A stretch of DNA of 64,000 nt, taken from assembly GCF_010668395.1 (NCBI RefSeq), contig NZ_WUEY01000011.1, forward strand, positions 124,001 through 188,000. The letters are read 5' to 3'. Shown here one piece after another: positions 644 through 25,058 of the stretch. The notes under the pieces are model-generated. The model searched no databases, was not told where the DNA came from, and was given only the letters and a program-made list of their open reading frames with translations. Each line of letters begins with the position of its first letter. Position 1 is the stretch's first letter. The stretch is from Martinezella lusitana. GTDB lineage: Bacteria; Pseudomonadota; Alphaproteobacteria; Rhizobiales; Rhizobiaceae. Both the position numbers and the translations under genes were made by a program.

Positions 644-654
644 AAGGATATCTC

Positions 655-6799: not shown

Positions 6800-7119
6800 G
6801 TTGCGATTGCAGCACGATCCGACCATCGAAGACGAGAACGCGCTTTGCGTTTGTCTGGAAGCGGACGGACATTTTCTTCCATGCCTTGCGGACGCCGTGG
6901 AAGCAAAAACTAAAATCGCGAAATAGTCTATATTTTTACTAGATAACTGTTCGCGGCGGCCTCCGGCGGGAGGGGATTTCGCAAAGCTTTTCTTTCTCGG
7001 TCGATGAGAAAAACATTCTTCCGTTTTGCCGGCTCGGCACCCGAAGATGTGCCGATCAGGGGCCTGTCCGCCATCTATTCGTACAGAAGCCGATCCATCC
7101 AGCCGGCAAGGAAAATCGA
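6800..7119. other. Divergent regulatory region between LysR gene and solute-binding protein gene
   Basis: This 320-bp stretch holds no convincing gene. It carries the LysR-like box at 6924-6949 in an AT-rich patch and, nearer the plus-strand gene, a plain GC-rich leader. The short ORF overlapping its left end antisense to the LysR gene has no support. Confidence 0.6.
6924..6949. promoter_or_regulatory. LysR-type palindromic box, copy 1
   Basis: A 26-bp AT-rich element beginning TAGTCTATA with arms TCTA and TAGA around a T-N11-A core. It matches the element at 23648-23673 at 19 of 26 positions by eye. It lies between the divergent LysR and solute-binding protein genes, the normal place for a LysR operator. 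Confidence 0.5.
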
Positions 7120-8739
7120 ATGACCATCAATCGCCGCCGTTTCAATCAACTGCTTCTGCTGTCGACCGCCGCGACCTTTCTGCCGTCCGCCGCAACCTAC
7201 GCGGCAGACGCAGCGCCGCCGCGTGGCGGCACGCTCAACTTCATCGTCGAACCCGAACCGCCGACGATTCTTGCGCTTGCCCACACCGCCGGCGGCACGC
7301 AGAAGATCAGCCCGAAGATCACCGAGGGCCTGCTGGCCTACGATTTCGACCTGACGCCGAAACCGCAGCTCGCAACAGAATGGTCGGTCGCCGCCGACGG
7401 ACTGACCTATACGTTCAAGCTGCGACCCAACGTCAAATGGCATGACGGCAAGCCGTTTACCTCCGCTGATGTCGCCTATTCGATCGAACTCCTGAAACAG
7501 GTCCATCCCCGCGGGCGAGGCACCCTTGCCAACGTCGTCGCCGTTGATACGCCGGATCCGCTGACTGCGGTATTCCGCCTTTCGAAGCCGGCACCCTATC
7601 TACTGAAAGCGCTCTACGCGGCCGAATCCCCGATCGTGCCCAAGCATGTCTACGAAGGCGTCAAGATCGCCGATGTTCCGACCAACCCGAATGGCGGCGC
7701 GCCCATCGGCACAGGTCCGTTCGTCTTCCGGGAATGGGTGCGCGGCTCCCATATCATCCTGGAGCGCAATCCTGACTATTGGGATGCCGGCAAGCCCTAT
7801 CTCGATCAGGTCGTCGTCCGCTTCGTGCCCGACGGCGCCGCTCGCGCTGCAGGGTTCGAAACCGGAGAATTCGATCTCGGCGGCGACAATCCCATTCCGC
7901 TCGCCGATCTCGATCGCATCAAGGCCTTGCCGAATATCGGCATCGATTCCCGCGGTTACGAGACGAAGGGCGACCAGACGCAGCTCATCCTCAACCTTGA
8001 CAACGAGTATCTGAAGGATGTCCGCGTGCGCCGCGCGATTGCCCACGCCATCGACCTCAACGTGATCCTCAACACGGTCTGGTATGGCTATGGACACGTT
8101 TCGCCGACACCGGTCAGCACGTTCCTGCCGCAATATCTGGACACCACGATCAAGCCCTATGCCTTCGATCTGAAAGCCGCCGAACAGCTGCTCGACGACG
8201 CCGGCTACAAGCGCAACGGCAATGGCACCCGCTTCGCGCTTCGCCTGACGCACAATTCCTACAACGAGGGCTTCAAGCGCGTCGCCGAATATCTGAAGCA
8301 GAACCTGGCGCGCATCGGCATCGATGCGCGGATCGACTCCTATGATTTCTCCACCTACATCCAGAAGGTCTATACCGAGCGCGCATTCGACCTGGCGGCC
8401 GAGTATCTCGGCAACCAGTTCGATCCGACGCTTGGCGTGCAGCGCATCTATTGGTCGAAGAACTTCAAGCTCGGACTGCCCTTCTCCAACGCCAGCCACT
8501 ATCAGAACCCGGAGGTCGACAGGCTTCTCGAGGCAGCGTCGGTCGAGGTCGACGAGGCGAAGCGCAAGCAGGAGTTCAACGATTTCCAGAAGATCATCGC
8601 CGACGAGCTTCCGGTCATCAACCTGATCGCGCTCGAAAACGTCACCGTCTTCAACAAGCGCGTCAAGAACCACACGACCGGCGCCGAAGGCGTGCAATCG
8701 AATTTCGCCGATGTCTATATCAAGGAAGGCGAGGGCTGA
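7120..8739 (+). CDS. ABC transporter substrate-binding protein, family 5 (peptide/opine/nickel type), Tat-exported
   Basis: A 539-residue family 5 periplasmic binding protein. The N-terminus MTINRRRFNQLLLLS has a twin-arginine motif (residues 5-8) before a hydrophobic stretch and an AYAADA-like cleavage region near residue 30. Family landmarks include LRPNVKWHDGKPFTSADV, GTGPFVFREW and LERNPDYWD. It is close to the proteins at 16780 and 21836, particularly the latter in its signal region. It has no permease of its own and probably serves the DppBCDF system encoded at 12596-16491. It stands alone on the plus strand with a strong terminator behind it. Confidence 0.92.
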   Translation: MTINRRRFNQLLLLSTAATFLPSAATYAADAAPPRGGTLNFIVEPEPPTILALAHTAGGTQKISPKITEGLLAYDFDLTPKPQLATEWSVAADGLTYTFKLRPNVKWHDGKPFTSADVAYSIELLKQVHPRGRGTLANVVAVDTPDPLTAVFRLSKPAPYLLKALYAAESPIVPKHVYEGVKIADVPTNPNGGAPIGTGPFVFREWVRGSHIILERNPDYWDAGKPYLDQVVVRFVPDGAARAAGFETGEFDLGGDNPIPLADLDRIKALPNIGIDSRGYETKGDQTQLILNLDNEYLKDVRVRRAIAHAIDLNVILNTVWYGYGHVSPTPVSTFLPQYLDTTIKPYAFDLKAAEQLLDDAGYKRNGNGTRFALRLTHNSYNEGFKRVAEYLKQNLARIGIDARIDSYDFSTYIQKVYTERAFDLAAEYLGNQFDPTLGVQRIYWSKNFKLGLPFSNASHYQNPEVDRLLEAASVEVDEAKRKQEFNDFQKIIADELPVINLIALENVTVFNKRVKNHTTGAEGVQSNFADVYIKEGEG

Positions 8740-8797: not shown

Positions 8798-10219
8798 CTA
8801 GGACGCGATGAGCGAAAGCAGCGTCAGCTTGCCGAGGATGCGGTCGGCCAGCGCAATCGCCTGCGCACGCTGCTCGGTGATCGAGCTCGATTCCCAGGCA
8901 ACGCCCCTGAGCGGATGGCCGATCGCGCTGATGTTGCGGTGGACCCGCCCCTCCTCGGAGATGACATCGCCCTGCTCCGTGGCGTCGATGCCGAAGCCGG
9001 TGCTGTGCGGACGAACCTCTCCGCTTTCGAGCAGGTTTTTGACGAAGGGATCCGAAATGCGCCGCCAGTCGTGCAACTGATGGCCGCGGCAATCGATGAC
9101 GCCGCCAAAGGAATGGGCTTCGGTGCCGGATCGGGTTTTCAGCGTCGCGGCGATCAACCGGCCGGAGGGTTTCATCGAGAGCAATCGTGCGGGCTGGTGC
9201 CGGAGGCGGCCCTCGGTAACCGCATTGGAGACGGCGCGATAGCTCTCGGGCGCCGCGCGATGCGCCGTCACGTCCCAGAACGCGCGGAGATGGCGGGCAA
9301 ATCGCAATCTCTCCGCATCGCCGGCCCTCTGCCAGAGAGGCAGGATGTGCGGCCGGATGGCAAGCGGCAGCGCCTGCCAATCCTTGCCGGCGGCCGCCAA
9401 TGCGCGGCGCTCGGCCTTGACGACGGATAGCAGCGATCGTGCGGTGGTCGGCAGCGGTCCTTCAGCGAGAAAGTCGCGCTCCAGCGTTGCATTGCGCCGA
9501 TCTTCGATGAATTGGCCCCGTCTGGATATCACCCGATACTGGCCACGGAAGCCGCGGGCCTCCATGCTGGCGACGGCATCGACCATCGACAGGCTCGACC
9601 CGACGAGCAGGATCTCCTCGGCGTCGACAAGGCGATCCAGCGCGCCGCTATCCCATGGCGACGCGGCATAGGCCGCATGGGTCGCGACAGACGCCTCCCG
9701 CGCCGCAAGTTCGGGCTGGAAGACGCCGAGGGCAAGGATCACCTCATCCGCCTCGATGGTCTCTCCTTCGCTCGTCGTGATCGCAACTCTGTGCGGAGCG
9801 GAAACCAGCGTGGACGCCGAAGCCCTGACATGGCGGAATATCGATCCGGACCGTGCCGTCGAGATCGCTCGGCGCAGCTCGTCGCGAACGTAGGTTCCGT
9901 ACAGGTATCGCGGCGGAAAACTGGAGGCGATATCGGCAGGCGGCGTCCAGCCGTAGCGCGGCGCATGATCGCCGAGCCAGCGCACCAGATGCTCGGGCTC
10001 CTCCGGATGAAGCGAAAACGTGCTGGCCGGGCCGTTGACGAGATGAACGGTCTCGACCGTGCTGTAGGCGACCCCGCGTCCCAGCTCCTCGCGGGGCTCC
10101 AGTATCGTGATCGATAAAGGCACCTCGGTCCTGTCGAGCAGCTTGATCGCGGTCAGCGCACCGGCGAAGCCACCGCCGATGATGGCGATGGAGTGATGGG
10201 AATGCGGGTCTATGTGCAT
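8798..10219 (-). CDS. FAD/NAD(P)-binding protein (YdhS/COG4529-like)
   Basis: A 473-residue flavoprotein with an N-terminal Rossmann motif (IAIIGGGFAGALTAIKLL, about residues 11-28), the LGRGVAYST motif and a second nucleotide-binding segment, ILLVGSSLSMVDAVASM. This layout fits the FAD-NAD(P)-binding family related to YdhS, whose reaction is unknown to me. It follows the acyl-CoA dehydrogenase-like gene at 10223-11458 with 3 bp between them, so the two are co-transcribed and probably act on the same substrate. The start is the ATG at 10219. Confidence 0.85.
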   Translation of the reverse strand: MHIDPHSHHSIAIIGGGFAGALTAIKLLDRTEVPLSITILEPREELGRGVAYSTVETVHLVNGPASTFSLHPEEPEHLVRWLGDHAPRYGWTPPADIASSFPPRYLYGTYVRDELRRAISTARSGSIFRHVRASASTLVSAPHRVAITTSEGETIEADEVILALGVFQPELAAREASVATHAAYAASPWDSGALDRLVDAEEILLVGSSLSMVDAVASMEARGFRGQYRVISRRGQFIEDRRNATLERDFLAEGPLPTTARSLLSVVKAERRALAAAGKDWQALPLAIRPHILPLWQRAGDAERLRFARHLRAFWDVTAHRAAPESYRAVSNAVTEGRLRHQPARLLSMKPSGRLIAATLKTRSGTEAHSFGGVIDCRGHQLHDWRRISDPFVKNLLESGEVRPHSTGFGIDATEQGDVISEEGRVHRNISAIGHPLRGVAWESSSITEQRAQAIALADRILGKLTLLSLIAS

Positions 10220-10222
10220 GGC

Positions 10223-11458
10223 TCAGAAGACCTTGCCTTCTTCCAGATGCGTCGTGGTGCCGTTGATATAATAGTCGCCCACCACCCGCGCCTTGTGCAG
10301 CAGCGGATTGTGGTTGAGCACGGTGCGGATGTTGCGCCAATGGCGGTCGAGATTGAGATGGCGCGATGTCACCGAACCGCCCCCGAGCTCGAAGACATTG
10401 GTGGCGGCGGCAAGGGCAAGCTGGGAGGCGACGATCTGGGTGCGCGCCGTCGTCAGCGCACTCTCGACCAGGGCTGCTTCCAGCGCCTGGGGATCGTCGC
10501 CCGCGAAGGCCGCGGCCGTACGGTCGAGCGCGCGGGCGCTCTCGCGGATCAGCGTATCGACGGCGAAGGAGCCGGCGGCGATCTCGCCCAGTATCTTTTG
10601 CACGAAAGGATCGGCATCGGCTGTTTCGGCGGCACTGTGCGCCGCCGAACGCGCCTGCCTGCGCACATATTCCGTACCCTCGCTCAGCGCTCCGCGGACG
10701 GCGCCCGCCATCGAGGCGGCAAGGTGAAGCTGGCGTAGCGTCGATGTGTGCCTGCCGACCAGCGTGTTCAGCCCGCGCGTCGAAATCTCGTGCGGCAGGA
10801 CTTCGACGTCTTCGAGAAGCACACCGCCGCTTGCCGTCAGGCGCTGGCCCATGCCGTCCCAATCGTCGAGAATGGCGATCCCCTTGCGGTCCACCGGCAA
10901 CAAGACGCTGACGAGCTGGTCTTCATCGTTCTTGGCGCTGAAGGAGGCAAAATCGGCGAATGCCGTGCCTGTCGCGTACCATTTTCGACCGTTGAGGCGG
11001 TAACTTTCGCCGGATTTCGTCAGTCGGGTCGTCACCTCGCCCGGACGTTTCGTCCCCTGCTCCGTATGAGCGCCGCCGAAGAGTTTGCCGCCGAGAACGC
11101 GCGCAAGCTGCGTGCGATCGACGGCGCTGTTCGGATTGAGCAGCAGGGCCTCGGTGAAATTGAAGTGGCTCCGGAGCGCATGGGCCACATTGGAGTCGGC
11201 CGCGCCGAGCGCCATGATCATCTCGATATAGTCGAGCACCGATCCGCCCGGACCGCCAAGCGTCGTCGGTATGCGCAAGGCGCCAAGACCCGTCTCCTTG
11301 AACAGCCGAAAGGCCTCATGCGGAAGCTCGCGCTCAAGATCTCGCCGCGCCGCCCCTTTTGCGATCTGCACCGCCAGGTCCGGTATTCGGGCAAGCAGCG
11401 TCGCGCGATCGGTTTCGACGGGAGCGGAGGGTACGGCTGATGAAGCTATGATGGGCAT
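10223..11458 (-). CDS. Acyl-CoA dehydrogenase-fold flavin monooxygenase (SfnB/DszC type)
   Basis: A 411-residue member of the acyl-CoA dehydrogenase superfamily. It shows GALRIPTTLGGPGGS near residue 60, DDWDGMGQRLTASGG near 215 and a C-terminal FELGGGSVTSRHLNLDRHWRN. It is more divergent from the pair at 1 and 2376 than they are from each other and resembles SfnB-like proteins of sulfur acquisition. It is the first gene of a two-gene minus-strand unit with the FAD protein. The terminator at 11488-11511 separates it from the aldo/keto reductase upstream, so it must have its own promoter in a short gap. Confidence 0.85.
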   Translation of the reverse strand: MPIIASSAVPSAPVETDRATLLARIPDLAVQIAKGAARRDLERELPHEAFRLFKETGLGALRIPTTLGGPGGSVLDYIEMIMALGAADSNVAHALRSHFNFTEALLLNPNSAVDRTQLARVLGGKLFGGAHTEQGTKRPGEVTTRLTKSGESYRLNGRKWYATGTAFADFASFSAKNDEDQLVSVLLPVDRKGIAILDDWDGMGQRLTASGGVLLEDVEVLPHEISTRGLNTLVGRHTSTLRQLHLAASMAGAVRGALSEGTEYVRRQARSAAHSAAETADADPFVQKILGEIAAGSFAVDTLIRESARALDRTAAAFAGDDPQALEAALVESALTTARTQIVASQLALAAATNVFELGGGSVTSRHLNLDRHWRNIRTVLNHNPLLHKARVVGDYYINGTTTHLEEGKVF

Positions 11459-11487
11459 GAACGGTTCTTTTCGCGCCGGAAGGAAAG

Positions 11488-11511
11488 AAGGCCCCGCTCC
11501 AGCAGGGCCTT
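11488..11511 (-). terminator. Terminator after the dpp-aldo/keto reductase operon
   Basis: On the minus strand AAGGCCC pairs with GGGCCTT with inner GCT/AGC pairing, followed by a pyrimidine-rich CTTTCCTT. It lies 12 bp after the stop of the aldo/keto reductase gene. Confidence 0.75.
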
Positions 11512-11522
11512 GGGCTTGGCGA

Positions 11523-12581
11523 CTAGGCTACGGCGCGGGCGAGCGGCACGACGTTTTCAGCATCGCCGGCGGCACTGACGGGAACGCGGCCCTCGACCGG
11601 ATGGCTGGGGTCGTTGAAGCCCGGGGTCGAGGGATGGCCCGTCGTCACCAGGCGATCGACCAGGGCTTCGTCCTCGGCATTGAGCTTGACGTCGAGGGCA
11701 CGTAGATAGCTGTCCCAATGCTCTTCCGTGCGCGGACCGGTGATCGCGGAGGTGATCAGCCTGTTGTTCAGCACCCAGGCGATCGCAAACTCTGTCGGCG
11801 TCACCTTCCGGGCGGCGGCGTGGGCGGCGATTTCCTTGGCGATGGCGATCGATTCCGGCCTCCATTCGGTTTCGAGAATGCGCTTATCGCCACGGCCGGC
11901 GCGGGTATCGGCCGCGGGCTCCTTACCCGGCTCGTATTTTCCGGTCAGCACGCCGCGCGCCAGCGGCGAATAGGACACGACGCCGAGGCCGTAATGGTAG
12001 GCGGCCGGAAGCTGCTCGGCTTCGGCCGTGCGGTTGACGATGTTGTAGAGCGGTTGGCTTGCGACCGGGCGATCGATGCCGAGCTGATCGGCCAGATGGG
12101 CGATCTCGGCGATACGCCAGCCGCGGAAGTTCGACACGCCGAAATAGCGCAGCTTGCCCGCGCGGACGAGATCGGCAATCGCACGCACCGGCTCTTCGAG
12201 CGGCGCGTCGAAGACGGCACGGTGGAAATAAAGGATATCGATGTAGTCGGTGTTGAGACGGCGCAGCGAGTTCTCGACGGTCTCGATCACCCATTTGCGC
12301 GAATGACCGCCGAGATTGGGACCCTTCTTGTGGGAGTTGACGAACTTCGTCGCCAGAACCCAGTGGTCGCGGTGCGCCTTGATGCCACGGCCGACCACCT
12401 CTTCCGACTTGCCGTCATGATAGACGTCGGCGGTGTCGACGAAATTGATCCCCTGGTCGCGCGCCTTGTCGATGATGCGGAATGCGACGTCGTCGGGCGT
12501 CGGGCCGCCGAACATCATGGTTCCAAGGGTGAGAGGCGATACCTTCAGCGCGCTGCGCCCGAGATAGCGATAGTCGACCAT
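11523..12581 (-). CDS. Aldo/keto reductase
   Basis: A 352-residue aldo/keto reductase with the tetrad context intact: FVDTADVYHDGKSEEVVG (Asp and catalytic Tyr), LATKF (Lys) and ILYFHR (His). GVSNFRGW completes the barrel signature. It reduces aldehydes or ketones with NADPH in the cytosol; the substrate is unknown. I use the ATG at 12581 (MVDYRYLGRS), the normal start for the family, rather than the ATG six codons upstream that overlaps the ATPase gene. It is the last gene of the dppBCDF operon, so its substrate is probably linked to the imported compound. Confidence 0.9.
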   Translation of the reverse strand: MVDYRYLGRSALKVSPLTLGTMMFGGPTPDDVAFRIIDKARDQGINFVDTADVYHDGKSEEVVGRGIKAHRDHWVLATKFVNSHKKGPNLGGHSRKWVIETVENSLRRLNTDYIDILYFHRAVFDAPLEEPVRAIADLVRAGKLRYFGVSNFRGWRIAEIAHLADQLGIDRPVASQPLYNIVNRTAEAEQLPAAYHYGLGVVSYSPLARGVLTGKYEPGKEPAADTRAGRGDKRILETEWRPESIAIAKEIAAHAAARKVTPTEFAIAWVLNNRLITSAITGPRTEEHWDSYLRALDVKLNAEDEALVDRLVTTGHPSTPGFNDPSHPVEGRVPVSAAGDAENVVPLARAVA

Positions 12582-12595
12582 GTCATTTCTCCATT

Positions 12596-14503
<1,908 letters not shown>

Positions 14504-14504
<1 letters not shown>

Positions 14505-15505
14505 CAGCGCTCCTCCGAGAAGCGGGGATTGAGCGCATCGTTCAGACCGTCGCCGATGAGGTTGAGCGCAAGCACGGTGAAGACGATGGCAAGTCCGGGC
14601 AAGGCGGTGAGATACCAGGCCGTGCGGATGACGTCACGACCCGAGCCGATCATCGACCCCCAGGAGACGCGATTGGGATCGCCGAGCCCCATGAAGGACA
14701 GCGCCGATTCCATCAGGATCGCGCTCGCCACCATGACGGAAGACGTCACGATCAAAGGCGGCAAAGCATTCGGCAGGATCTCGCGAAAGATGATGCGGGA
14801 ATGGCCGAAGCCGAGGCTGCGGGCGGCAAGAACATAGTCCTTTTCCCGTATCGCGCGGAATTCGGCGCGCGTCAGGCGCGCAACCGTCGGCCAGCTGACG
14901 ATGGCAATCGCAATCGTCACCGTCGACGTGGTCGGCTGTGCGATTGCGACCAGCACCACGAGAAGGACGAAGCTCGGTATGGTCTGGAAAATCTCGATGA
15001 GCTTGACCAAGAGATCATCGACCACCCCGCCGAAATAGCCGGCAAGCGCCCCGATCGTGACACCGGCGCCAAGTCCGAGAAGCGTTGCGGCTATGCCGAC
15101 GGTCAGCGAGATCTGGGCACCATGCAGGATGCCCGCCAGCACATCGCGCCCCATGGAATCCGTGCCCAGCGGATAGGCTGCGTTCTGGCCCGGCCAGAGG
15201 AAGGGCCGCGCCACCATCTCCAGCGGATCGCCGGGATAAAGTACCGGCGCGAGCAGAGCCGCAAGCACGATGCCGGCAAGGACCGCAAGGCCGAAGAGCG
15301 CATTGGGATTGGCAAGAAAGATCCTCAGCTCCCGCCTGCGTCCCTGCCAGCGCCCGCCCGACACGGCTGTCGTGCGGGCATCGGGCGCGTGAATATGGGT
15401 CCACCGACGCTCCACGACCGGCTCCGGCTTTGCGTCCGTCCCGGACGCTTCGGAGCTGAAATCACGCTCTTCATCCGCATAGACCTTGAGCTCTTGCGCT
15501 TTCAT
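14504..15505 (-). CDS. dppC: Peptide-type ABC transporter permease (DppC-like)
   Basis: A 333-residue inner-membrane permease. It has a longer cytosolic N-terminus (about 75 residues) before the first membrane segment, as DppC proteins do, and the EAA loop ARSLGFGHSRIIFREILPN near residue 225. LGTDSMGRDV and SFMGLGDP are family landmarks. It overlaps both neighbours by four bases. Confidence 0.92.
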
Positions 15506-16491
15506 CGGCTTGCTCCGATCCGAGGGTCGAGCCAGGCTTGCAGGATATCGACAGCGGCATTGGCGATGATGACGAGGAATGACGAAAGAAGCAGAATGCC
15601 GAGCAGAACGCTGAAATCGCGGGCCATCACCGCCTCGAAGGCCAACCGTCCGAGGCCGGGCCAGCTATAGACGGTTTCGACGACGACGGCCCCGCCAAGC
15701 ATGCCGCCGAAATGCATGCCGGCCATGGTGGTGATCGGGATCAGCGCGTTGCGCAGCACATGCCGGGTCGTCAGGATGAAGGGTGAGACGCCCTTCGCCC
15801 GGGCGGTGCGCACGAAATCCTGCGACTTGACCTCCAGCATCGCTGCCCGGGTCAATCTGGCGTAGATGGCGAGATAGAACAAGGCGAGCGAAACTGCCGG
15901 CAGCACCATGTAGCGTATCCGGTCGAGCAGCGCCGGCAATCCGGTCAGCCGCGAGCCGATGGTGCTGTCGCCGCCGCTCGGCAGCCATCCGAGCTTGACG
16001 GAAAACAGGAGGATCAGCATCAGCCCGATCCAGAAACCGGGAATGGAATAGAAGAGCAGCGAAACGATCGAGATCAGCCGGTCCGGCAGCCGGCCGGCGA
16101 AGCTGGCCATCAGCGATCCAAGCGTCAGGCCGATCACGATGGCGAAGATAAGCGCCGCCAGCATCAGCGTCAGGGTGCCGGGCAATCGTTGCCCGATCAG
16201 ATCGGCCACCGGCATGCCGTAGCGCGGCGAAAAGCCGAGGCTGAAATGCGCAAGATTGTTCAGGTAGTTCGCAAGCTGCACGAGGATGGGATTGTCCAGG
16301 CCGAAGCGTTCGCGCAGCGCCGCCATCGTCTCGACCGTCGCCGAGCCGGCTTCGGCCGCCATGACATCCGCCGCATCGCCCGGCGCCAGCTTCAGCAGGA
16401 AGAAGTTCAGGATGACGATGCCGAGCACCGTCGGCACCGCCTGAATGGCCGTCCGGCGTAGCGTTCGTCCTATCCGCATGTAAGCCGACAT
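15502..16491 (-). CDS. dppB: Peptide-type ABC transporter permease (DppB-like)
   Basis: A 329-residue permease with the DppB N-terminus (RRTAIQAVPTVLGIVILNFFLLKL in two adjoining stretches), the RFGLDNPILVQ motif, and the EAA loop ARAKGVSPFILTTRHVLRN. It is the first gene of the minus-strand operon dppBCDF plus aldo/keto reductase, divergent from the solute-binding protein gene at 16780, which is probably one of its partners. Confidence 0.92.
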   Translation of the reverse strand: MSAYMRIGRTLRRTAIQAVPTVLGIVILNFFLLKLAPGDAADVMAAEAGSATVETMAALRERFGLDNPILVQLANYLNNLAHFSLGFSPRYGMPVADLIGQRLPGTLTLMLAALIFAIVIGLTLGSLMASFAGRLPDRLISIVSLLFYSIPGFWIGLMLILLFSVKLGWLPSGGDSTIGSRLTGLPALLDRIRYMVLPAVSLALFYLAIYARLTRAAMLEVKSQDFVRTARAKGVSPFILTTRHVLRNALIPITTMAGMHFGGMLGGAVVVETVYSWPGLGRLAFEAVMARDFSVLLGILLLSSFLVIIANAAVDILQAWLDPRIGASR

Positions 16492-16566: not shown

Positions 16567-16779
16567 TCAAATCCGTATTGGTAGATATTTCCAGAATTTA
16601 TCGATTGGTCGGCAAAGTTTGGAATAAATGTGCGACGTATCGATACAAACGAGTTTTCCGTACTAAAAATCGAACTTTCGGGGACAAAGGAACCTACGGG
16701 AGCCGCTCTCGTCGAAAAGATAAAACCAGCCGCCGCTCGTAAGTCGCAGCACGGCCCCAGACATGCGAGGCAACCTCAG

Positions 16780-18384
16780 ATGACCAGACTTCCAGCAACT
16801 ACACGGCGTGGTTTCCTGCTTTCGTCCGCAGCCTTCGGCGCGCTCGTCATGACGGGAACGGCGGGCTATACGGCTCCATCCAAGGGCGGCACGGCAACCC
16901 TGCTGCTTTCGGCCGAACCGCCGGTTCTGACGACGATCGCCCACACGGCTTTCAATTCGGTCTACGTGTCGCCGAAGGTGACCGAGGGTCTGCTGACCTA
17001 CGATTTCGACCTCAACCCGCAGCCGCTGCTCGCCACGCGGTGGACTGTCAGCGACGATGGACTGCGCTACACGTTCAAGCTGCGCGACGGAGTCAAATGG
17101 CATGACGGAAAACCCTTCGGCGCCGATGACGTGGCCTTTTCGATCAAGACGCTGAAGGATGTTCACCCGCGCGGGCGCAACACGTTTCTCAATCTCGTCG
17201 ATATCGAAACGCCCGATCCCTTGACGGCGGTACTCGTCCTTTCCAAACCGGCGCCCTATCTCATCACCGCGCTCGCGGCTTCCGAATCTCCCATTGTTCC
17301 GCGCCATCTCTACGAGGGCACGAAGGTCGCGGAAAATCCGGTCAATCTCGCGCCTGTGGGCACCGGGCCGTTCAGGTTCAAGGAATGGGTGCGTGGCAGC
17401 CATATCGTCTATGAGCGCAATCCCGACTATTGGGACCAGCCCCGCCCCTATCTCGACCAGCTAATCGTTCGTTTCATTCCCGATGCCGCGGCGCGCTCCA
17501 TCGCGATCGAAACCGGGGAGATCGATCTGGCGCCATCGACGCCCGTCCCGCTCAGCGATCTCGAACGCTTCAAGAGCGTGGATGGCCTCGCCTTCGAAAC
17601 CCGCGGCTATCAATATTCCAACGGCGTCAGCCGCATCGAGTTCAACCTCGAAAAGCCGGCCTTCAAGGATGTCCGGGTCCGCCGCGCCTTTGCGCATGTC
17701 ATCGACCGGAAGGTGATCCGCAACACGATCAACTATGGTTACGGCGAACCGATCCCCGGCCCCATCAACCCCAACCTGACGAAATGGTACGTCGCCGACC
17801 TGAAGACATATCCGATCGACCTCGCCGCGGCGGAGAAGCTGCTGGACGAAGCCGGCCATCCACGCGGCTCGGACGGCGTGCGCCTGCGCCTCAACCTCGA
17901 CTACGTGCCGAGCGGAGAAAGCTATAGCCGCGGCTCGGAGTATATCCGCCAGGCGCTCGCCAAGGTCGGCGTCGAGGTGACGGTGCGCAGCCAGGACTTT
18001 GCGACCTATACCAAGCGCATCTATACCGATCGCGACTTCGATTTCGCCTTCGAGGGGATGAGCAATCTCTTCGACCCGACCGTCGGCGTGCAGCGGCTCT
18101 ACTGGAGCAAGAATTTCCAGCCGGGTGTGCCCTTCTCCAATGGCTCGGCCTACAACAATCCCAAGGTCGATGATCTGCTTGAAGCCGCCGCGATCGAGGT
18201 GGACGCAAAGAAGCGCGTCGAGCAATGGCGTGAGATCCAGGAGATCCTCGTCGACGACCTGCCGGCGCTCGACATCGTCAGCCAGCCGGAACTGACCATC
18301 TACAACAAGCGCATCGCCGACCACACGCTCGGCGGCGAAGGCATCTCCGGCAGCCTCGCCTACGCCTATCTCGCAACCGCCTGA
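16780..18384 (+). CDS. ABC transporter substrate-binding protein, family 5, Tat-exported
   Basis: A 534-residue family 5 binding protein starting MTRLPATTRRGFLLSS, with a twin-arginine motif and hydrophobic stretch. Landmarks are LRDGVKWHDGKPFGADDV, GTGPFRFKEW and YERNPDYWD. An in-frame extension to 16630 exists but has no signal-peptide logic, so the ATG at 16780 is used. It heads the plus-strand operon 16780-21798 and is divergent from dppB, making it the natural partner of the DppBCDF importer. Its gene is followed 22 bp later by an SsuD/SfnG-like monooxygenase. Confidence 0.9.
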   Translation: MTRLPATTRRGFLLSSAAFGALVMTGTAGYTAPSKGGTATLLLSAEPPVLTTIAHTAFNSVYVSPKVTEGLLTYDFDLNPQPLLATRWTVSDDGLRYTFKLRDGVKWHDGKPFGADDVAFSIKTLKDVHPRGRNTFLNLVDIETPDPLTAVLVLSKPAPYLITALAASESPIVPRHLYEGTKVAENPVNLAPVGTGPFRFKEWVRGSHIVYERNPDYWDQPRPYLDQLIVRFIPDAAARSIAIETGEIDLAPSTPVPLSDLERFKSVDGLAFETRGYQYSNGVSRIEFNLEKPAFKDVRVRRAFAHVIDRKVIRNTINYGYGEPIPGPINPNLTKWYVADLKTYPIDLAAAEKLLDEAGHPRGSDGVRLRLNLDYVPSGESYSRGSEYIRQALAKVGVEVTVRSQDFATYTKRIYTDRDFDFAFEGMSNLFDPTVGVQRLYWSKNFQPGVPFSNGSAYNNPKVDDLLEAAAIEVDAKKRVEQWREIQEILVDDLPALDIVSQPELTIYNKRIADHTLGGEGISGSLAYAYLATA

Positions 18385-18406
18385 AGCATAGAAAGCAGGG
18401 AATGCC

Positions 18407-19585
18407 ATGTCTATTCAGCACCTGCCCGGCTCCATCGTGGGCCTGCCGAAATTCGCCGCGCCGACCGATTTTGCCGATAGCCCGCTGTCGCAGGCCCTGA
18501 AGCAGCCCGTGCTTCTCGGCCTCTTCCTGCCGATCCAGGCCGGCGGCTGGACGCAATCGACGCTCGAACGCTCCACCGACTGGCGCTTCGACTACAACAA
18601 GGCGCTGACACTGCGCGCCGAGGAGCTTGGCTTCGATCTGGTGTTCGCACTGTCGCAATGGCTTCCCAAGGGCGGCTATGGCGGCGTCTTCAACGGACAG
18701 GCGCTCGACAGCTTCGTCTCGACCGCCGCCTTGGCCGCCCTCACGAAGAAGATCATGCTCATTTCCACGATGCATGTTCTCTACGGACCATGGCATCCCC
18801 TGCATCTCGCCAAATTCGGCGCCACGCTCGACCACATCACCGGCGGCCGCTGGGGCATCAATGTCGTCACCGGCCACAGGGCGGTCGAACACGAAATGTT
18901 CGGCTGGCCGCGCATCGAGCATGACAAGCGCTATGAGCTTGCGGCGGAATTTCTCGAGGTCGTGCAGCGGCTGTGGAGCGACGATGAGAATTATTCCTTC
19001 GAGGGCGAGAGCAGCTGGAAGCTCGGCGGCGGCTTCGTCACGCCGAAGCCGAATTTCGGCCGGCCGATCCTGGTGAATGCCACCGGTTCGGATGCCGGCA
19101 TCGCCTTCGCCGCCCGCTACTCCGATATCGTCTTCATCACCAGCCCGACCGGGGCGGATATCGACAGCGCCCTTGCCTCCCTGCCGGCCCACACGAAGAG
19201 GGTGAAGGACGCCGCCGCCGATGTCGGCCGCACCGTACGCACCCTGCTCAATCCGATGGTCATTTGTCGGCCGACCGAGAAGGAGGCATGGGAACTGGCG
19301 GACCGGATCGTCGCCCATGCCGACCAACGCTCTCCGCAGGGCTTCCAGTCGCTGAGCTCCGACGCCCAGGCATGGAAGGGCCGCGACCCGCAGGATCCCT
19401 ACCGCTTCGTCGGCGGCAACATCCGCGTCATCGGCTCGCCGGAACAGGTGGTCGACCAGTTCGTCAAGCTCAAGGCGGCCGGCGTCGACGGCCTTCAGCT
19501 CAGCTTCTTCGACTTCCGCGACGACCTCGAATTCTTCGGCACGAACGTCCTGCCGCTGATGAAACAAGCCGGCCTGCGCCACTGA
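18407..19585 (+). CDS. LLM-class flavin-dependent monooxygenase (SsuD/SfnG-like)
   Basis: A 392-residue luciferase-like monooxygenase from the alkanesulfonate/dimethylsulfone monooxygenase branch rather than the NtaA branch. The motifs ERSTDWRFDYN, LDHITGGRWGINVVTGH and a C-terminal EFFGTNVLPLMKQ match the SfnG/SsuD pattern as I remember it. Such enzymes release sulfite or sulfinate from sulfones or sulfonates using FMNH2 and O2. It sits directly before a DszB-like desulfinase gene (11 bp gap), which would act on a sulfinate product. GCAGGGAATGCC places a weak Shine-Dalgarno before the ATG at 18407. Confidence 0.88.
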   Translation: MSIQHLPGSIVGLPKFAAPTDFADSPLSQALKQPVLLGLFLPIQAGGWTQSTLERSTDWRFDYNKALTLRAEELGFDLVFALSQWLPKGGYGGVFNGQALDSFVSTAALAALTKKIMLISTMHVLYGPWHPLHLAKFGATLDHITGGRWGINVVTGHRAVEHEMFGWPRIEHDKRYELAAEFLEVVQRLWSDDENYSFEGESSWKLGGGFVTPKPNFGRPILVNATGSDAGIAFAARYSDIVFITSPTGADIDSALASLPAHTKRVKDAAADVGRTVRTLLNPMVICRPTEKEAWELADRIVAHADQRSPQGFQSLSSDAQAWKGRDPQDPYRFVGGNIRVIGSPEQVVDQFVKLKAAGVDGLQLSFFDFRDDLEFFGTNVLPLMKQAGLRH

Positions 19586-19596
19586 AAGGAACGACC

Positions 19597-20634
19597 ATGA
19601 CCAGCAATGCCATTTCCGAAATCTGGTACACGCGCTGCCCTGTTCCGACGCCCGTCGGCCTTGCGGCACAGCTCGGCTATCTCGAAGACGCCTTTCGCTC
19701 CGAGGGCGTGACGCTGAAATCCATCATCGACTCGCCCGACCGGAACATCCGGCAGAGCCACTTCAACCATACGCTCGACTGGTCCTTCCGCCACGGCGGC
19801 AACGTGCCGCCCATTCGCGCCCGCTCGGAAGGGCGCCGCACGCGCCTTGTCGGCATCACATGGACGGACGAGTTTCAGGCAATCATCACCCTGCCGGGAA
19901 CCGGCATCAAGACGACCAGGGATCTCAAGGGCCGTCGCTTCGGCATTGCCCGCCGCCCCGAGGGGATCGTCGACTTCATGCGTGCGACGGCGCTCAAGGG
20001 CCTGGTCTCGGCTCTCTCGCTCGGGGGCCTGTCGAAGGACGATGTCGAGATTGTCGAGATCGCGCTTGCCGATTCCGTGCTCGCAAGCCAGGAAGGGCCA
20101 TCGCTTTTCGGCCTCAAGCGCCGGCAGGCCTATGGCGAAGAAATCGCCGCTCTGCTGCGTGGCGAGGTGGACGCCATCTACGTCAAGGGAACCGCGGGCA
20201 TCAACGTCGCCAATCTCATCGGCGCCGTCCAGGTGGCCGAATTCGGCTTTCATCCGGATCCGAAGATCCGCATCAATTCCGGCTCGCCGCGCGTGCTGAC
20301 CGTGGATGATCTGCTGGCCGACGAACGTCCCGATCTCGTGCGGAAGCTCATCGAGGCGATCTTCAAGGCAAGCGCCTGGGCGGAAGCCCATCCGGAGGAA
20401 ACACGGCGTTTCGTCGCGCGTGAATCCGGCGCCACGGAAGAACAGGTCCTTGCGGCCAACGGCCCGGAAATCCATCGCCATCTCGGCCTCGGATTGGATC
20501 CGGAGCTTGTAGGCGCCGTCGAGCACTACAAGAATTTCCTGCGCGACTTCGGTTTCCTGGCCGGAGATTTCGACATTGGCGCCTGGGTGGACCGCCGCCA
20601 TCTCGACGGCTTTGCCGAACGTGCCGTTGCCTGA
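19597..20634 (+). CDS. DszB-like sulfinate desulfinase
   Basis: A 345-residue protein with the periplasmic-binding fold but no signal peptide. Its N-terminal part follows 2'-hydroxybiphenyl-2-sulfinate desulfinase (DszB): YTRCPVP with Cys14, then RQSHF with His55, and FRHGGNVPPI with Arg65. DszB uses Cys27, His60 and Arg70, and the ten-residue His-Arg spacing is identical. TRLVGITW and GEVDAIYVKG also fit. The known reaction hydrolyses an aromatic sulfinate to sulfite plus the desulfurised product in the cytosol. The gene lies between an SsuD/SfnG-like and a DszC-like monooxygenase, which supports a sulfur-oxidising pathway. Homology to SsuA-type binding proteins is the alternative, made unlikely by the missing signal and the intact triad. 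Confidence 0.8.
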   Translation: MTSNAISEIWYTRCPVPTPVGLAAQLGYLEDAFRSEGVTLKSIIDSPDRNIRQSHFNHTLDWSFRHGGNVPPIRARSEGRRTRLVGITWTDEFQAIITLPGTGIKTTRDLKGRRFGIARRPEGIVDFMRATALKGLVSALSLGGLSKDDVEIVEIALADSVLASQEGPSLFGLKRRQAYGEEIAALLRGEVDAIYVKGTAGINVANLIGAVQVAEFGFHPDPKIRINSGSPRVLTVDDLLADERPDLVRKLIEAIFKASAWAEAHPEETRRFVARESGATEEQVLAANGPEIHRHLGLGLDPELVGAVEHYKNFLRDFGFLAGDFDIGAWVDRRHLDGFAERAVA

Positions 20635-20649
20635 AGACTTGCAAAATCG

Positions 20650-21798
20650 ATGACCGAGACATTCACCGACCTGATCGGCAAGGCCAGGAGCCTTGCCGAC
20701 GATTTCTCCGGCACAGCCGCGCATCACGACGCGACCGGGGCCTTTCCCTTTGAGAACTTCGACAGGCTCTTCGACACGGGCCTGCTGGGGCTCGTCACCG
20801 CTCGCGAGCACGGCGGGCTTGGCGAGGGCCTGACTTCGGCGCAGGCCGTCATCAGCGAGATTGCCCGGGGCGAGCCCTCGACCGCGCTGGTGCTTGCCAT
20901 GCACTACACCTCGCATTTCGCGATCCGCCGCTTCGGCAAGTGGCCTCGGCATCTGGCGGAACGGGTGCTGTCGGCAAACAGGCAGGGCGTGGCACTGATC
21001 AACAACGCGCAGGCCGAACCGCGCATCGGCTCGCCGGCCCATGGCGCCCTGCCGGAAACCATCGCGCGCCGTGACGGCGATCGCTGGCGCATTTCCGGCC
21101 ACAAGAGTTACGTGACCGGCATCCCCGTCCTGAAATGGGTGTCGCTCCTTGCCCTCACCAACGAGCCGGAACCGCGCCTTGCTTCCTTTCTGGTGCCGAC
21201 CGATGCCGCCGGCCTGCGGATCGAAAAGAGCTGGAATGCGGCGGGCATGCATGCGACGGCGAGCGACGACATCATCCTCGAGGACGTCTCTGTCCCGCTC
21301 GACGACCTCATCGAGGCCCAGCCGGCCGGCGAGCCGATCCGCCGCGACGAGCATGCCGCGGCCTTCTTCTTCGGCCTGCTCGGTGCGGTCTATCATGGCG
21401 TGGCGAGGACGGCGCGCGACCGCGTTCTTGCCTTCGCAAGCCATCATGCGCCCGCCAGCCTCGGCGCGCCGATCGCAACGGTGCCGCGTATCCAGGATGG
21501 CCTCGGCGAAATCGAGGTACGGCTTGCGACGAATGCGCGGCTATTGCGCTCGCTCGGGGAGGATGTCGATGCCGGCAGGCCTGTCGGAATGGACGGCATG
21601 CATGTCCGCCATGTCGTCATCGACAATGCGGTTGCCGTGACCAGCCTCGCGCTCGAGCTTGCCGGCAATCCCGGCCTCAATCGCGACTTTCAGCTGGAGC
21701 GCCATCATCGCGATGCGATCACCGCCCGGTCGCACGCGCCGCAAAGCCATATGATCCGCACGATCGCAGCCAGGAACGCCTTGAGCCGGCTTGGATAA
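20650..21798 (+). CDS. Acyl-CoA dehydrogenase-fold flavoprotein (probable monooxygenase)
   Basis: A 382-residue acyl-CoA dehydrogenase superfamily member with LFDTGLLGLVTAREHGGLGEG near residue 40-60 and RISGHKSYVTG near 150. It ends the 16780-21798 operon, 15 bp after the DszB-like gene. It differs from the three DszC/SfnB-like proteins of the window, being shorter in the C-terminal domain and lacking their DDWDG motif, so it could be a dehydrogenase or a monooxygenase for another step. A clear ribosome site is not visible before the ATG at 20650. Confidence 0.85.
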   Translation: MTETFTDLIGKARSLADDFSGTAAHHDATGAFPFENFDRLFDTGLLGLVTAREHGGLGEGLTSAQAVISEIARGEPSTALVLAMHYTSHFAIRRFGKWPRHLAERVLSANRQGVALINNAQAEPRIGSPAHGALPETIARRDGDRWRISGHKSYVTGIPVLKWVSLLALTNEPEPRLASFLVPTDAAGLRIEKSWNAAGMHATASDDIILEDVSVPLDDLIEAQPAGEPIRRDEHAAAFFFGLLGAVYHGVARTARDRVLAFASHHAPASLGAPIATVPRIQDGLGEIEVRLATNARLLRSLGEDVDAGRPVGMDGMHVRHVVIDNAVAVTSLALELAGNPGLNRDFQLERHHRDAITARSHAPQSHMIRTIAARNALSRLG

Positions 21799-21835: not shown

Positions 21836-23437
21836 TCAGGCGTTCGGGCTCAGCCAGATCTGGCCGAAGCTGTTGTTGATGCCCTGCGCCCCGGGTGCAA
21901 AATTCTTTACCCGCTTGTTGGCGACGATCTGCGCCCCCGCGGCAACCAGATCGACGGACACGACGTCATCGTGGACGATGTGCTGGAACTTGTACCAGAG
22001 CTGGCGGCGCTTGGCCTCGTCCGGCTCCGTGGCGGCGGCCTCGAGCACCGCATCGACCTCCGGATTGGAATAGTGGCTGGCATTGGAGAACACCAGGCCG
22101 ATCTTGAAGTTCTTCGACCAATAGGCGCGCTGCACGCCCAGGGTCGGGTCAAACGTATTGGAAAGGGATTCGATCACAAGATCCCAGGTGCGATCCGTAT
22201 AGACGGTCTTCAGAAAGGTCGCGAGGTCGAGCTGCAGGATTTCCGCATCGATACCGACCGCGGCAAGCGACTGCTTGATGAAATCGGCATAGGACGTCTG
22301 CAGGAAGGGATTGTAGGCAAGCCGCAGCTTGAAACGCGTGCCGTTGGCGCCGCGCGGATAGCCGGCATCGTCAAGAAGCTTGTTGGCAAGCTTGGGATCG
22401 GGTTCGCGCGCCTTGATGCTCGGGTCGTACCATTTCGGCAATGCGGTGCTGATCGGGCTTGGAGAAACCTGCCCATAGCCGAACAGGGCGATATCCACGA
22501 GCTTCTGCAGATCGATGGCGTGGGCAATGGCCAGCCGCACATCCTTCTTCGTGAGGATCTCGTTCTCGTAGTTGAAGAAGAGCTGCTGCTGCGGCCCGGA
22601 ATAGGCATAGGTCGTCGTATCGACGACGAGATTGGAATTGGCCTTCAGGCGCTCGACATCGGATAGCGGCACCGGGTTTGCACCGATATCGATTTCCCCG
22701 GTTTCAAGCGCTGCGGCCCTTGCCGCCGGATCGAGGATGACACGAAGGACCACGCGGTCGAGATAGGGCTTGGGCGCATCCCAGTAGTCGGGATTGCGAT
22801 CGAAGATCAGATGGCTGCCCGGCACCCATTCCTTGAGGATGAACGGGCCGGTGCCGATCGTCTGGGCAAGGGTCGGCTGCTCCGTCGGCTTGAAGGTTTC
22901 ATAGACGTGCTTCGGCACGATCGGCGATTCCGAGCTTCCGAGTGCGGAGATCAGGTAGGGCGCCGGCTTGGAAAGCACGATGATGGCCGTCAGCGGATCG
23001 GGCGTCTCGACCGATGTCACGTTTTGGAAGGTGATGCGCCCGCGCGGATGCGCTTCCTTCAGACGGAAAATCGTGAACTTGACATCCTCGGAGGTAAAAT
23101 CCTTGCCGTCATGCCACTTGACCCCTTTTCGCAGGGCGAAGCTGTAGCGAAGACCATCGTCACTGACCGACCAGGATGTCGCCAGGAACGGCGTCGGATT
23201 GAGATCGTAGTCGAAGTCGAGCAATCCCTCATTGATCTTCGGGCCGATCGCCTGCCCTGTGCCGGAAGAGGTGTTGATCGCGATCAGCGCCGTGGGATCG
23301 GGATAATAGGCCCAGTTCAGGGTTCCGCCGCTCACGGGCGTCTCGGCAGCGCCAGCCCATGACGGGATGCCTCCAAAGACAAGGCCTGCACCTCCCAGAA
23401 GCAGCAATTGGTTGAAGTGACGGCGATTGATCGACAT
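21836..23437 (-). CDS. ABC transporter substrate-binding protein, family 5, Tat-exported
   Basis: A 533-residue family 5 binding protein starting MSINRRHFNQLLLLGG, nearly the same signal region as the protein at 7120 and again with twin arginines. LRKGVKWHDGKDFTSEDV, GTGPFILKEW and FDRNPDYWD are present. It is a third orphan binding protein with no adjacent permease and probably shares DppBCDF. It is divergent from the monooxygenase at 23724. Confidence 0.92.
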   Translation of the reverse strand: MSINRRHFNQLLLLGGAGLVFGGIPSWAGAAETPVSGGTLNWAYYPDPTALIAINTSSGTGQAIGPKINEGLLDFDYDLNPTPFLATSWSVSDDGLRYSFALRKGVKWHDGKDFTSEDVKFTIFRLKEAHPRGRITFQNVTSVETPDPLTAIIVLSKPAPYLISALGSSESPIVPKHVYETFKPTEQPTLAQTIGTGPFILKEWVPGSHLIFDRNPDYWDAPKPYLDRVVLRVILDPAARAAALETGEIDIGANPVPLSDVERLKANSNLVVDTTTYAYSGPQQQLFFNYENEILTKKDVRLAIAHAIDLQKLVDIALFGYGQVSPSPISTALPKWYDPSIKAREPDPKLANKLLDDAGYPRGANGTRFKLRLAYNPFLQTSYADFIKQSLAAVGIDAEILQLDLATFLKTVYTDRTWDLVIESLSNTFDPTLGVQRAYWSKNFKIGLVFSNASHYSNPEVDAVLEAAATEPDEAKRRQLWYKFQHIVHDDVVSVDLVAAGAQIVANKRVKNFAPGAQGINNSFGQIWLSPNA

Positions 23438-23723: not shown

Positions 23724-25058
23724 ATGACCTCAGCGAAACGACAGCTTCATCTCAATGTCGGCATCAACACCACCGGCTATCTTGCCAATGCGTGGCGCTA
23801 CCGCACCGGCGACCGCCATGATATCAACAACCCCGAATACTACCGCCGGCTGACGGAACTGGCACACAGGGGGCTGTTCGACGCGGTCTTCTTCTCGGAC
23901 CACCCCGCATTGATGACCGATCCGAACGGGCGCCCGTTCCACACCATCGATCCGTTGATCCTGTGCACGGCACTGGCCGCACAAGTGCCCGACATCGGCT
24001 TCGTCGCGACCATGTCGTCGACCTACAATTCACCCTACAATCTGGCGAGGCGCACACAATCCGCCGATATCATCTCCGGCGGTCGGTTGATCATCAACAT
24101 CGTCTCGTCGTTCAACCCGAACGTCGCCGCCAATTTCGGCGCAGCGCCACTGCCGCCGCGCAGCGAACGCTATGCGAAGGCATCCGAGTTTCTCGATGTC
24201 GCCAAGAGGCTTTGGTCAAGCTGGGATCCGGCGCGCGAGGGCGAAATTCCCGACGACCGCTTTTGGGACGCGGCGAGCGCGCAGGCGATCGACCACTCCG
24301 GAGACTATTTCACCGTCAAGGGGCCGTTGAACGTGCCTGTCGGTCCGCAAGGCCATCCGGTCATCGCGCAGGCGGGCGCCTCCGAAGGCGGCATCGATCT
24401 GGCTGCCCGTCATGGTGAAATCATCTATTGCAACATTCTGTCTCGCCCGGCAGGTCAGGCCTTTGGCAAGAAGGTCAAGGATAGAGCCGTCGCGTTCGGG
24501 CGCGACCCTTCGGGAATACGCATCGTTCCGGGCCTCGTCGTCATCCTCGGCAAGAGCAGGGACGAAGCGCTGCGCAAGCATGAACTCTTTAGCGGCACCG
24601 GCTCGGAGGATGGTCTGATCGCGCGTTTCGTCAAGGACAACGGCATCGACCCGGATGGTTTCGATCCCGATGCCGTTTTGGACGCGGAACGCTTCATCCC
24701 CGATGCCAACCGTATTCAAGCCGTGGGCATGGGCCTGGGATTGTCCGATCTTCTCGCGCACGAGAAGCTCACCGCGCGCCAGGCGGTACGACGGTCCGAA
24801 GGGCACCATCGGCTGGTCCTCGGAACACCGGAGGAGGTCGCCGATGCGATCATAGATCTCTGGGCCGATGGGACCGTCGACGGCTACACATTGCAGCCGC
24901 CACGCGCTCCCGACGACATCGAAGAGTTCGTGGCCAATGTCGTGCCGATCCTGCAGGACCGCGGCGTCTATAGAACGGCCTATGAACAGGAGACGATACG
25001 CGATCGCTACGGTCTCCCCTATCCGCTGAACGACGGTGGCGATGCCTGGGCCGTTTGA
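23724..25058 (+). CDS. LLM-class flavin-dependent monooxygenase (NtaA/SnaA/DszA family)
   Basis: A 444-residue luciferase-like monooxygenase beginning QLHLNVGINTTGYLANAW after a short lead, with ATMSSTYNSPYNLARR and GGRLIINIVSSF. It is the third NtaA-type paralogue of the window. The gene stands alone, divergent from a binding protein gene, with a LysR-like box in the shared promoter region. Its cofactor reductase is presumably encoded elsewhere (the nitroreductase-family gene at 4934 is a candidate). Confidence 0.9.
   Translation: MTSAKRQLHLNVGINTTGYLANAWRYRTGDRHDINNPEYYRRLTELAHRGLFDAVFFSDHPALMTDPNGRPFHTIDPLILCTALAAQVPDIGFVATMSSTYNSPYNLARRTQSADIISGGRLIINIVSSFNPNVAANFGAAPLPPRSERYAKASEFLDVAKRLWSSWDPAREGEIPDDRFWDAASAQAIDHSGDYFTVKGPLNVPVGPQGHPVIAQAGASEGGIDLAARHGEIIYCNILSRPAGQAFGKKVKDRAVAFGRDPSGIRIVPGLVVILGKSRDEALRKHELFSGTGSEDGLIARFVKDNGIDPDGFDPDAVLDAERFIPDANRIQAVGMGLGLSDLLAHEKLTARQAVRRSEGHHRLVLGTPEEVADAIIDLWADGTVDGYTLQPPRAPDDIEEFVANVVPILQDRGVYRTAYEQETIRDRYGLPYPLNDGGDAWAV

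Follow-up and report, generated by a model that had tools for sequence, protein, structure and literature searches.

Rhizobial DNA holds a gene whose product may be read either as a sulfinate desulfinase related to DszB or as a binding protein of the SsuA type, and the question is which of these the 345-residue protein encoded at 19597-20634 is. The gene lies in a stretch of 64,000 nucleotides from Martinezella lusitana, called the window here. Its open reading frame runs for 345 codons plus a stop from an ATG at 19597, with the sequence AAAGGA 7-12 bases 5′ of the start. A sequence-only reading had proposed a DszB-like desulfinase with an intact Cys/His/Arg triad, set among genes for sulfur oxidation. 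DszB itself is an enzyme that strips sulfur from petroleum compounds.

Likeness to DszB and to SsuA-type binding proteins

DszB is the sole significant match to the protein in a phmmer search of PDB sequences, and it is not a chance match, since residues 8-333 are covered at E 1.9e-14 and the next structures, THI13 and SsuA, stand at E 0.13 and 0.6. A search with a 42-sequence profile gives E 1.7e-28 for DszB versus 6.7e-4 for SsuA. The identity to DszB is 25-29%. The closest homologs, among the best 80 of 109, come from R. miluonense, R. hainanense, R. multihospitium and R. tropici and share 95-97% protein identity. Pfam assigns the protein to the general NMT1/THI5-like family, and the SsuA family model TIGR01728 matches it at 77 bits, under the cut-off of 163.5 bits. 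The desulfinase of the Mycobacterium plasmid pMyong1 is likewise weak on this model (65 bits), and the sub-threshold scores of both proteins may be the origin of the automatic transporter name. The expectation that annotation would say sulfonate-binding protein is nearly right: 'ABC transporter substrate-binding protein' is the label of many annotated relatives, others are a 'hypothetical protein' or 'monooxygenase', and the TIGR01728 score stays below its cut-off. Numerous plasmid records carry no annotation at the homologous gene, and the pMyong1 gene adjoining dszC is labelled as a desulfinase.

The triad claimed earlier is placed identically by phmmer and MAFFT, Cys14, His55 and Arg65 pairing with Cys27, His60 and Arg70 of DszB; Thr12 pairs with Ser25 and Gly68 with Gly73. 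The spacing of His and Arg is 10 in both proteins, as the same reading had noted, and the distance from Cys to His is 41 versus 33 in DszB. The RxGG motif is present as R65-H-G-G68. DszB residues 152 and 155, which we take to be pocket residues, have no aligned counterpart in the 345-residue protein. Cys, His or Arg at the DszB catalytic places is found in none of six SsuA-type rows. In DszB itself, the C27S change abolishes activity and H60Q cuts it about 17-fold; the H60-S25 pair is suggested to assist the reaction, and R70 belongs to an RxGG motif described as conserved among homologs (PMC6100217).

The Cys/His/Arg/Gly set is intact in 130 of the 141 homologs that remain once identical copies and proteins shorter than 280 amino acids are removed. 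Because close rhizobial copies dominate the 141, counts by cluster are the fairer measure: a representative with the intact set is found for 60 of 69 clusters at 90% identity, 26 of 33 at 70% and 15 of 20 at 50%. The homologs compared by peptide pattern are the best 80 of 109 and hence biased to close relatives. At the Ser25 position all 130 intact homologs carry a hydroxyl residue (Thr in 129, Ser in one). The 11 exceptions comprise three ordinary binding proteins (L082, L090, L091), one protein with a disturbed N-terminus (L086), one with His changed to Asp (L107) and six Cys-to-Ser copies. In the L086 homolog the N-terminal part is unaligned, whereas the stretch corresponding to residues 67-343 of the query is about 64% alike, which looks like the result of a disturbed reading frame.

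An AlphaFold2 model built from a 42-row alignment has a pLDDT of 88.7 and a pTM of 0.87, with residues 1-3 and 165-174 as the segments below 50. The check suggested with the original proposal, an overlay of the predicted structure on DszB, gives DszB as the closest fold over the whole chain. It is the top match in Foldseek (E 1.6e-19, TM 0.77) and in VIA-align, with a Z of 31.5 to substrate-bound 2DE3 (rmsd 3.1, 315 residues aligned) and 30.1 to 2DE2, versus 25.2 for the best SsuA. The full-length match, together with the alignment of the four residues, implies indirectly that Cys14, His55 and Arg65 would lie around one pocket and not far apart. Binding of substrate turns DszB loop 55-62 into a helix that carries H60 in (PMC6100217). 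The predicted model has His55 within a helix at 49-57, the counterpart of that loop.

The fold is also used by HMP synthase, MqnA/MqnD and dihydroxyphthalate decarboxylase, and a different chemistry on the same scaffold, such as release of sulfite from a sulfonate or removal of some other small group, would fit a protein in which the DszB pocket is partly unaligned. Such enzymes score far under DszB, however: among 50 VIA-align entries Thi5 has a Z of 16.5, dihydroxyphthalate decarboxylase 14.5, MqnD 14.2 and MqnA 12.7, and THI13 is the one member of this group that appears in the sequence search. A setting of flavin monooxygenases and sulfur genes also speaks against this alternative, which is considered unlikely.

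The protein appears to lack a signal peptide, as had been claimed, by N-terminal hydrophobicity and by its start position relative to SsuA. The highest Kyte-Doolittle 12-mer in the first 40 residues scores 0.95 versus 1.8, 2.4 and 2.6 for three SsuA proteins; across 109 nearer homologs the range is -0.05 to 1.8, so that single values overlap with SsuA. Residue 5 of the model falls opposite residue 25 in SsuA of E. coli, where the mature protein starts. A cytosolic location of the 345-residue protein is thereby supported as a prediction.

A probable operon within a sulfur island

The features of the window that bear on the gene are as follows.

598-2010, plus strand: NtaA/DmoA-class luciferase-like (LLM) monooxygenase (589 bits)
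2376-3596, plus strand: DszC/SfnB-type protein (317 bits on the DszC model with its cut-off of 850; 269 bits on the SfnB model)
3551-4921, plus strand: NtaA/DmoA-class LLM monooxygenase (537 bits)
4934-5782, plus strand: nitroreductase family protein, candidate flavin reductase (PRK10765 172 bits, cut-off 223)
5789-6826, minus strand: LysR-type regulator that may control the island (279 bits on the GcvA model with its cut-off of 288)
7120-8739, plus strand: third SBP_bac_5 solute-binding protein
10223-11458, minus strand: SfnB/DszC-type protein (286 bits on the SfnB model with its cut-off of 431; 123 bits on the DszC model)
11523-12599, minus strand: aldo/keto reductase
12596-13546, minus strand: DppF-type ABC ATPase (name given to a homolog: oligopeptide/dipeptide ABC transporter ATP-binding protein)
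13509-14504, minus strand: DppD-type ABC ATPase (annotated homolog in L109, a Rhizobium sp. T1473 locus)
14504-15505, minus strand: DppC-type ABC permease (annotated homolog in L109)
15502-16491, minus strand: DppB-type ABC permease of the divergent operon (L109 homolog annotated as ABC transporter permease)
16630-18384, plus strand: SBP_bac_5, a family 5 extracellular solute-binding protein whose gene opens the operon
18407-19585, plus strand: SfnG-like LLM monooxygenase, candidate for C-S cleavage (211.6 bits, cut-off 382.95)
19597-20634, plus strand: predicted DszB-like sulfinate desulfinase (345 amino acids; by homology, fold and residues)
20650-21798, plus strand: acyl-CoA-dehydrogenase-fold protein, distant SfnB/DszC relative, candidate S-oxidising monooxygenase
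21836-23437, minus strand: second SBP_bac_5 solute-binding protein
23724-25058, plus strand: NtaA/DmoA-class (DszA-class) LLM monooxygenase (over the TIGR03860 cut-off)

The stretch 16630-21798 looks like a four-gene operon with the desulfinase gene in third place, after SBP_bac_5 and the SfnG-like LLM and before the distant SfnB relative. The gaps between the four genes are 22, 11 and 15 bp in that order. The Dpp-type importer and the aldo/keto reductase form a divergent operon at 16491-11523. The open reading frame at 16630-18384 has a long N-terminal extension ahead of a signal-like TTRRGFLLSS, and its true start is probably further in.

The gene had been described as lying between an SsuD/SfnG-like and a DszC-like gene. 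The upstream part of this description stands, the LLM being SfnG-like, but the downstream neighbour is a distant relative of SfnB and DszC (125 and 54 bits on the two models, both under cut-off) that scores similarly on other acyl-CoA-dehydrogenase models. Closer relatives of DszC in the window are the proteins at 2376-3596 and 10223-11458, at 317 and 123 bits. YEGT is a motif of acyl-CoA dehydrogenases. When the 20650-21798 protein is aligned with pMyong1 DszC, this motif is not seen in it, two His of conserved blocks are kept, and one block is C-terminal with Arg and His. It may, with moderate confidence, be taken as a flavin monooxygenase.

The sulfur-oxidation setting is richer than first noted, with four LLM monooxygenases, three SfnB/DszC-type proteins and one nitroreductase in the window. 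On contig C13, where the window begins at base 124,001, a 27-kb stretch at C13:121,984-148,878 (window positions -2016 to 24,878) holds five of the 33 LLM matches of the genome and four of its 28 SfnB-profile matches; the Poisson chance of such clustering is 1.5e-7 for LLM and 3.5e-6 for SfnB-profile matches, for a stretch picked afterwards. Directly ahead of the window, in L129 (which spans its start and the 14 kb before it), genes resembling those for SsuA, SsuB and SsuC, one further LLM, of the DmoA class, and one further DszC-like gene extend the sulfur island.

Neighbours, relatives and paired copies

Much of this setting recurs around homologous genes. In 80 homologous loci, 10 of them shorter than 17,000 bases, and with tblastn hits set aside if they covered less than half of the query, the 20650-type gene is present in 71; in 70 of these its start follows the desulfinase-like gene by less than 200 bp. 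The SfnG-like LLM (at least 80% identity) is found in 42 of the 80, directly upstream in every case. The aldo/keto reductase and DppB each occur in 77 of the 80, and an LLM of the 23724 type (at least 70% identity) in 26. An FAD_binding_3 monooxygenase is present in 22 homologous loci, two of them of S. meliloti, and is not found in the window. The FAD_binding_3 family includes many aromatic hydroxylases, and the gene hints at aromatic substrates in those 22 loci. In Rhizobium sp. T1473, a further LLM and an arylsulfatase gene lie a few kb 3′ of the homologous operon (L109:16115-20043).

More distant or plasmid-borne relatives keep similar company. With matches under 60 bits set aside, an LLM or SfnB/DszC-type gene is found in 13 of 16 such loci, among them the actinobacterial dszABC (L104). 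For three of the 13 (L101, L105, L127) the LLM match is weak, at 72-95 bits, and part of the reference proteins came from L104 and L107. No such neighbour is found in the other three (L108, L110, L128), though L128 does carry a nitroreductase and genes resembling SsuB and SsuC. Ssu-type transporter genes above 110 bits stand beside an LLM in seven of the 16 (L101, L107, L122, L123, L125, L126, L127). On pMyong1 (L104:437-4118) an LLM, the desulfinase and dszC lie in a row, followed by transposase genes of the IS256 and IS3 families. A Sphingobium plasmid (L107:5459-12302) carries three DszB-like genes among ssu genes, one of them with Asp at the place of His55.

On pSymA of S. meliloti, two Cys-bearing desulfinase-like genes flank an acyl-CoA-dehydrogenase-fold gene and are followed by NmrA-like, FAD-binding, NAD-binding and LLM genes, a run of at least seven genes in one direction; five divergent genes include the Dpp-type set and the aldo/keto reductase. 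Divergent pSymA operons of five (sma2085-sma2077) and eight genes (sma2087-sma2101) are reported to be up-regulated in one pSymB deletion (PMC5940162), and by layout and approximate position the desulfinase-like cluster may correspond to these operons. A gene of the sulfite-oxidase family (L100:19552-20958, minus strand; PF00174, PF03404; PDB E 2.6e-52) adjoins the desulfinase-like operon on pSymA. As support for a desulfinase role it is weak, since among homologous loci it is limited to the two S. meliloti records and several loci end before that point.

A tree of 53 rows places DszB (2DE2) and the pMyong1 enzyme on one branch (support 100/99) and the 345-residue protein with 46 relatives on the other (94/81, slightly under the limit for strong support). 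Together they stand apart from four SsuA-type rows (97/90). The tree was rooted at its midpoint and has some long branches, and it therefore points to two groups of one desulfinase-like set and not to an order of descent. The spread of the gene is patchy. Counting the source genome each time, matches occur in nine of the 199 genomes sampled from the family (E 1e-10; two of these, G088 and G175, have ordinary binding proteins alone, and G120 a partial match), in four of 385 of the class (E 1e-15; one, G444, a partial match) and in seven of 398 of the phylum (E 1e-15). Judged by sequence, similar genes are present in many other Gram-negative bacteria. The proposal of a Gram-negative DszB-like desulfinase candidate is upheld in that homology to DszB is full-length and the catalytic residues are intact and widely conserved.

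Many of the loci L058-L073 (e.g., L068:7989-9029 and 10253-11320) have a second paralog about 2.3 kb downstream, with CPAP for CPVP, 52-58% identity to the query and its residues intact. A different kind of pair occurs in one genus of the same phylum. The gene is present in 15 of 25 genomes (E 1e-40), each time as two matches side by side, and all 15 pairs consist of one Cys copy and one Ser copy, the latter with His for Arg one residue before. For example, L122 has the Ser copy at 9905-10960 and its Cys neighbour at about 11056-12090, both on the minus strand; further loci are L130-L159. H55, H58, R65, G67 and G68 are retained in all 30 paired copies. Both kinds of copy are under purifying selection: across 91 usable pairs the Ser copies have a median dN/dS of 0.082, and across 105 pairs the Cys copies have one of 0.083. 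Cys-to-Ser copies are also found in a Burkholderia record (L101:12239-13315, minus strand), where His and Thr are missing as well, and at the end of a Devosia locus (L060:2-886, minus strand), where His is missing; the His place holds Tyr or Ile, and intact copies are present in both loci. Since C27S inactivates DszB, the Ser copies look like non-cutting partners. Because some homologs have Ser for Cys, not every member of the family is likely to be a catalyst by DszB chemistry.

These Ser copies bear on a further alternative, that the protein is a cytosolic sulfonate- or sulfinate-binding protein or sensor, descended from SsuA by loss of the signal peptide and devoid of catalysis. Natural Cys-to-Ser members under purifying selection suggest a use that does without the Cys of DszB, and the shared SsuA fold (Z 25.2), the NMT1 assignment and the sub-threshold SsuA-family match are in line with such a descent. 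However, the sequence is much nearer to DszB than to SsuA, and while 130 of 141 homologs (or 26 of 33 clusters at 70%) retain the Cys/His/Arg/Gly set, all six SsuA-type rows lack Cys, His and Arg at those places. A binding-only role of this kind is thus rather improbable, and an SsuA binding protein proper is disfavoured by sequence, residues and N-terminus.

Proposed function and its meaning

From sequence and model together, the protein is probably a sulfinate desulfinase that works in the cytosol without a cofactor; it has a periplasmic-binding-protein fold and belongs to a clade distinct from that of DszB. For this desulfinase we infer catalysis, the order of steps and a substrate other than the sulfinate derived from dibenzothiophene (DBT). 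The reading is weakened by the 25-29% identity to DszB, the unaligned residues 152 and 155, the presence of the SsuA fold at a Z of 25 and the distance of the flanking DszC-like gene. It is very improbable that the protein is DszB proper, which ends the 4S pathway for dibenzothiophene, and this reading was set aside. In its favour, residues and fold are alike and DszA- and DszC-class genes lie in the island; against it, the protein and its 46 relatives branch apart from DszB and pMyong1, DszB 152/155 are unaligned, there is no dszABC operon, and an operon importer with family 5 binding proteins would be unexpected for dibenzothiophene.

In the proposed route an organosulfur compound would be taken in by the Dpp-type ABC importer with its family 5 binding proteins. 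Flavin monooxygenases of the SfnB/DszC type, with the acyl-CoA-dehydrogenase fold, would oxidise the sulfur, and a luciferase-like flavin monooxygenase of the SfnG/DmoA/DszA type would cut one C-S bond to yield a sulfinate. The desulfinase could then hold the sulfinate by Arg65 and Gly68 and remove the second C-S bond with Cys14 and the Thr12-His55 pair. The sulfite released would feed cysteine synthesis. DFT work on DszB favours a mechanism in which the proton of Cys27 attacks the ring of an aromatic substrate (PMC6100217), and this predicts an aryl or at least an sp2 sulfinate. The older nucleophilic proposal would also allow alkyl sulfinates.

The rhizobial gene may be compared with several known systems. 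Its product shares with DszB the fold, a similar length, the C27/H60/R70/G73 set with RxGG, and genes of the DszA and DszC classes nearby. It differs in having Thr for Ser25 and His58 for Tyr63, in its separate branch, in the part of the pocket that is unaligned, and in its place amid an SfnG-like LLM, a distant SfnB relative, an aldo/keto reductase and a Dpp-type importer. SsuA and TauA (TIGR01728) have the same fold, and annotation leans to their name, but they carry a signal-type N-terminus of their own, lack the Cys/His/Arg set in six of six rows and go with SsuB and SsuC. The Sfn system for dimethyl sulfone resembles the rhizobial island in its SfnG-like LLM and SfnB-like proteins, whereas the island also has a DszB-type desulfinase; we know of no such desulfinase in the Sfn route. 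BdsA, the desulfinase of the benzothiophene operon bdsABC in Gordonia terrae C-6, is, by its published description, likewise encoded beside genes for an FMNH2 monooxygenase and an alkanesulfonate monooxygenase, but it is actinobacterial (PMC3868597).

Several published phenotypes touch on the family. Sinorhizobium sp. KT55 reportedly desulfurises benzothiophene and uses dimethyl sulfone (PMC3868597, PMC6630823), and a connection with the rhizobial gene is a lead and nothing firmer. In the Gram-negative Chelatococcus, DszB is reported from MS peptides; the one DszB peptide shown is of the Rhodococcus type and not of the rhizobial-clade type (PMC4839641). Gordonia alkanivorans 135 reportedly desulfurises DBT with sfnB and has no DszB analog (PMC11852219). 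A lead from sulfolane degradation was dropped, the Rhodoferax concerned being reported to have a DszA homolog and no dszB (PMC6395730), which is uninformative on the desulfinase. The 'sulfinate desulfinase' of works on Burkholderia pyrrocinia, sigma-54 and Polaromonas is cysteine sulfinate desulfinase, a different enzyme. The desulfinase family is already known. For the clade apart from DszB, no publication was found in open-licence literature available in part, a weak negative.

Tentatively, and with less confidence than the assignment of the enzyme itself, the clade may be an overlooked second group of cofactor-free desulfinases in Gram-negative soil bacteria, hidden under 'ABC transporter substrate-binding protein' and similar names and acting on natural non-DBT sulfinates. 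In several lineages the Cys enzyme would be paired with a binding-only Ser partner, and KT55 could owe its use of benzothiophene and dimethyl sulfone to the rhizobial form. The more than 100 homologs with intact residues, in mostly Gram-negative hosts, are new candidate enzymes in which aryl versus alkyl sulfinates would separate the mechanisms. If some substrates are alkyl sulfinates, electrophilic aromatic substitution would be excluded for them and a nucleophilic Cys mechanism needed. More than 95% of soil sulfur is organic (PMC4267179). If the proposal is true, a recurrent misannotation would be corrected and a sulfite-yielding end step added to the use of organosulfur compounds by rhizobia.
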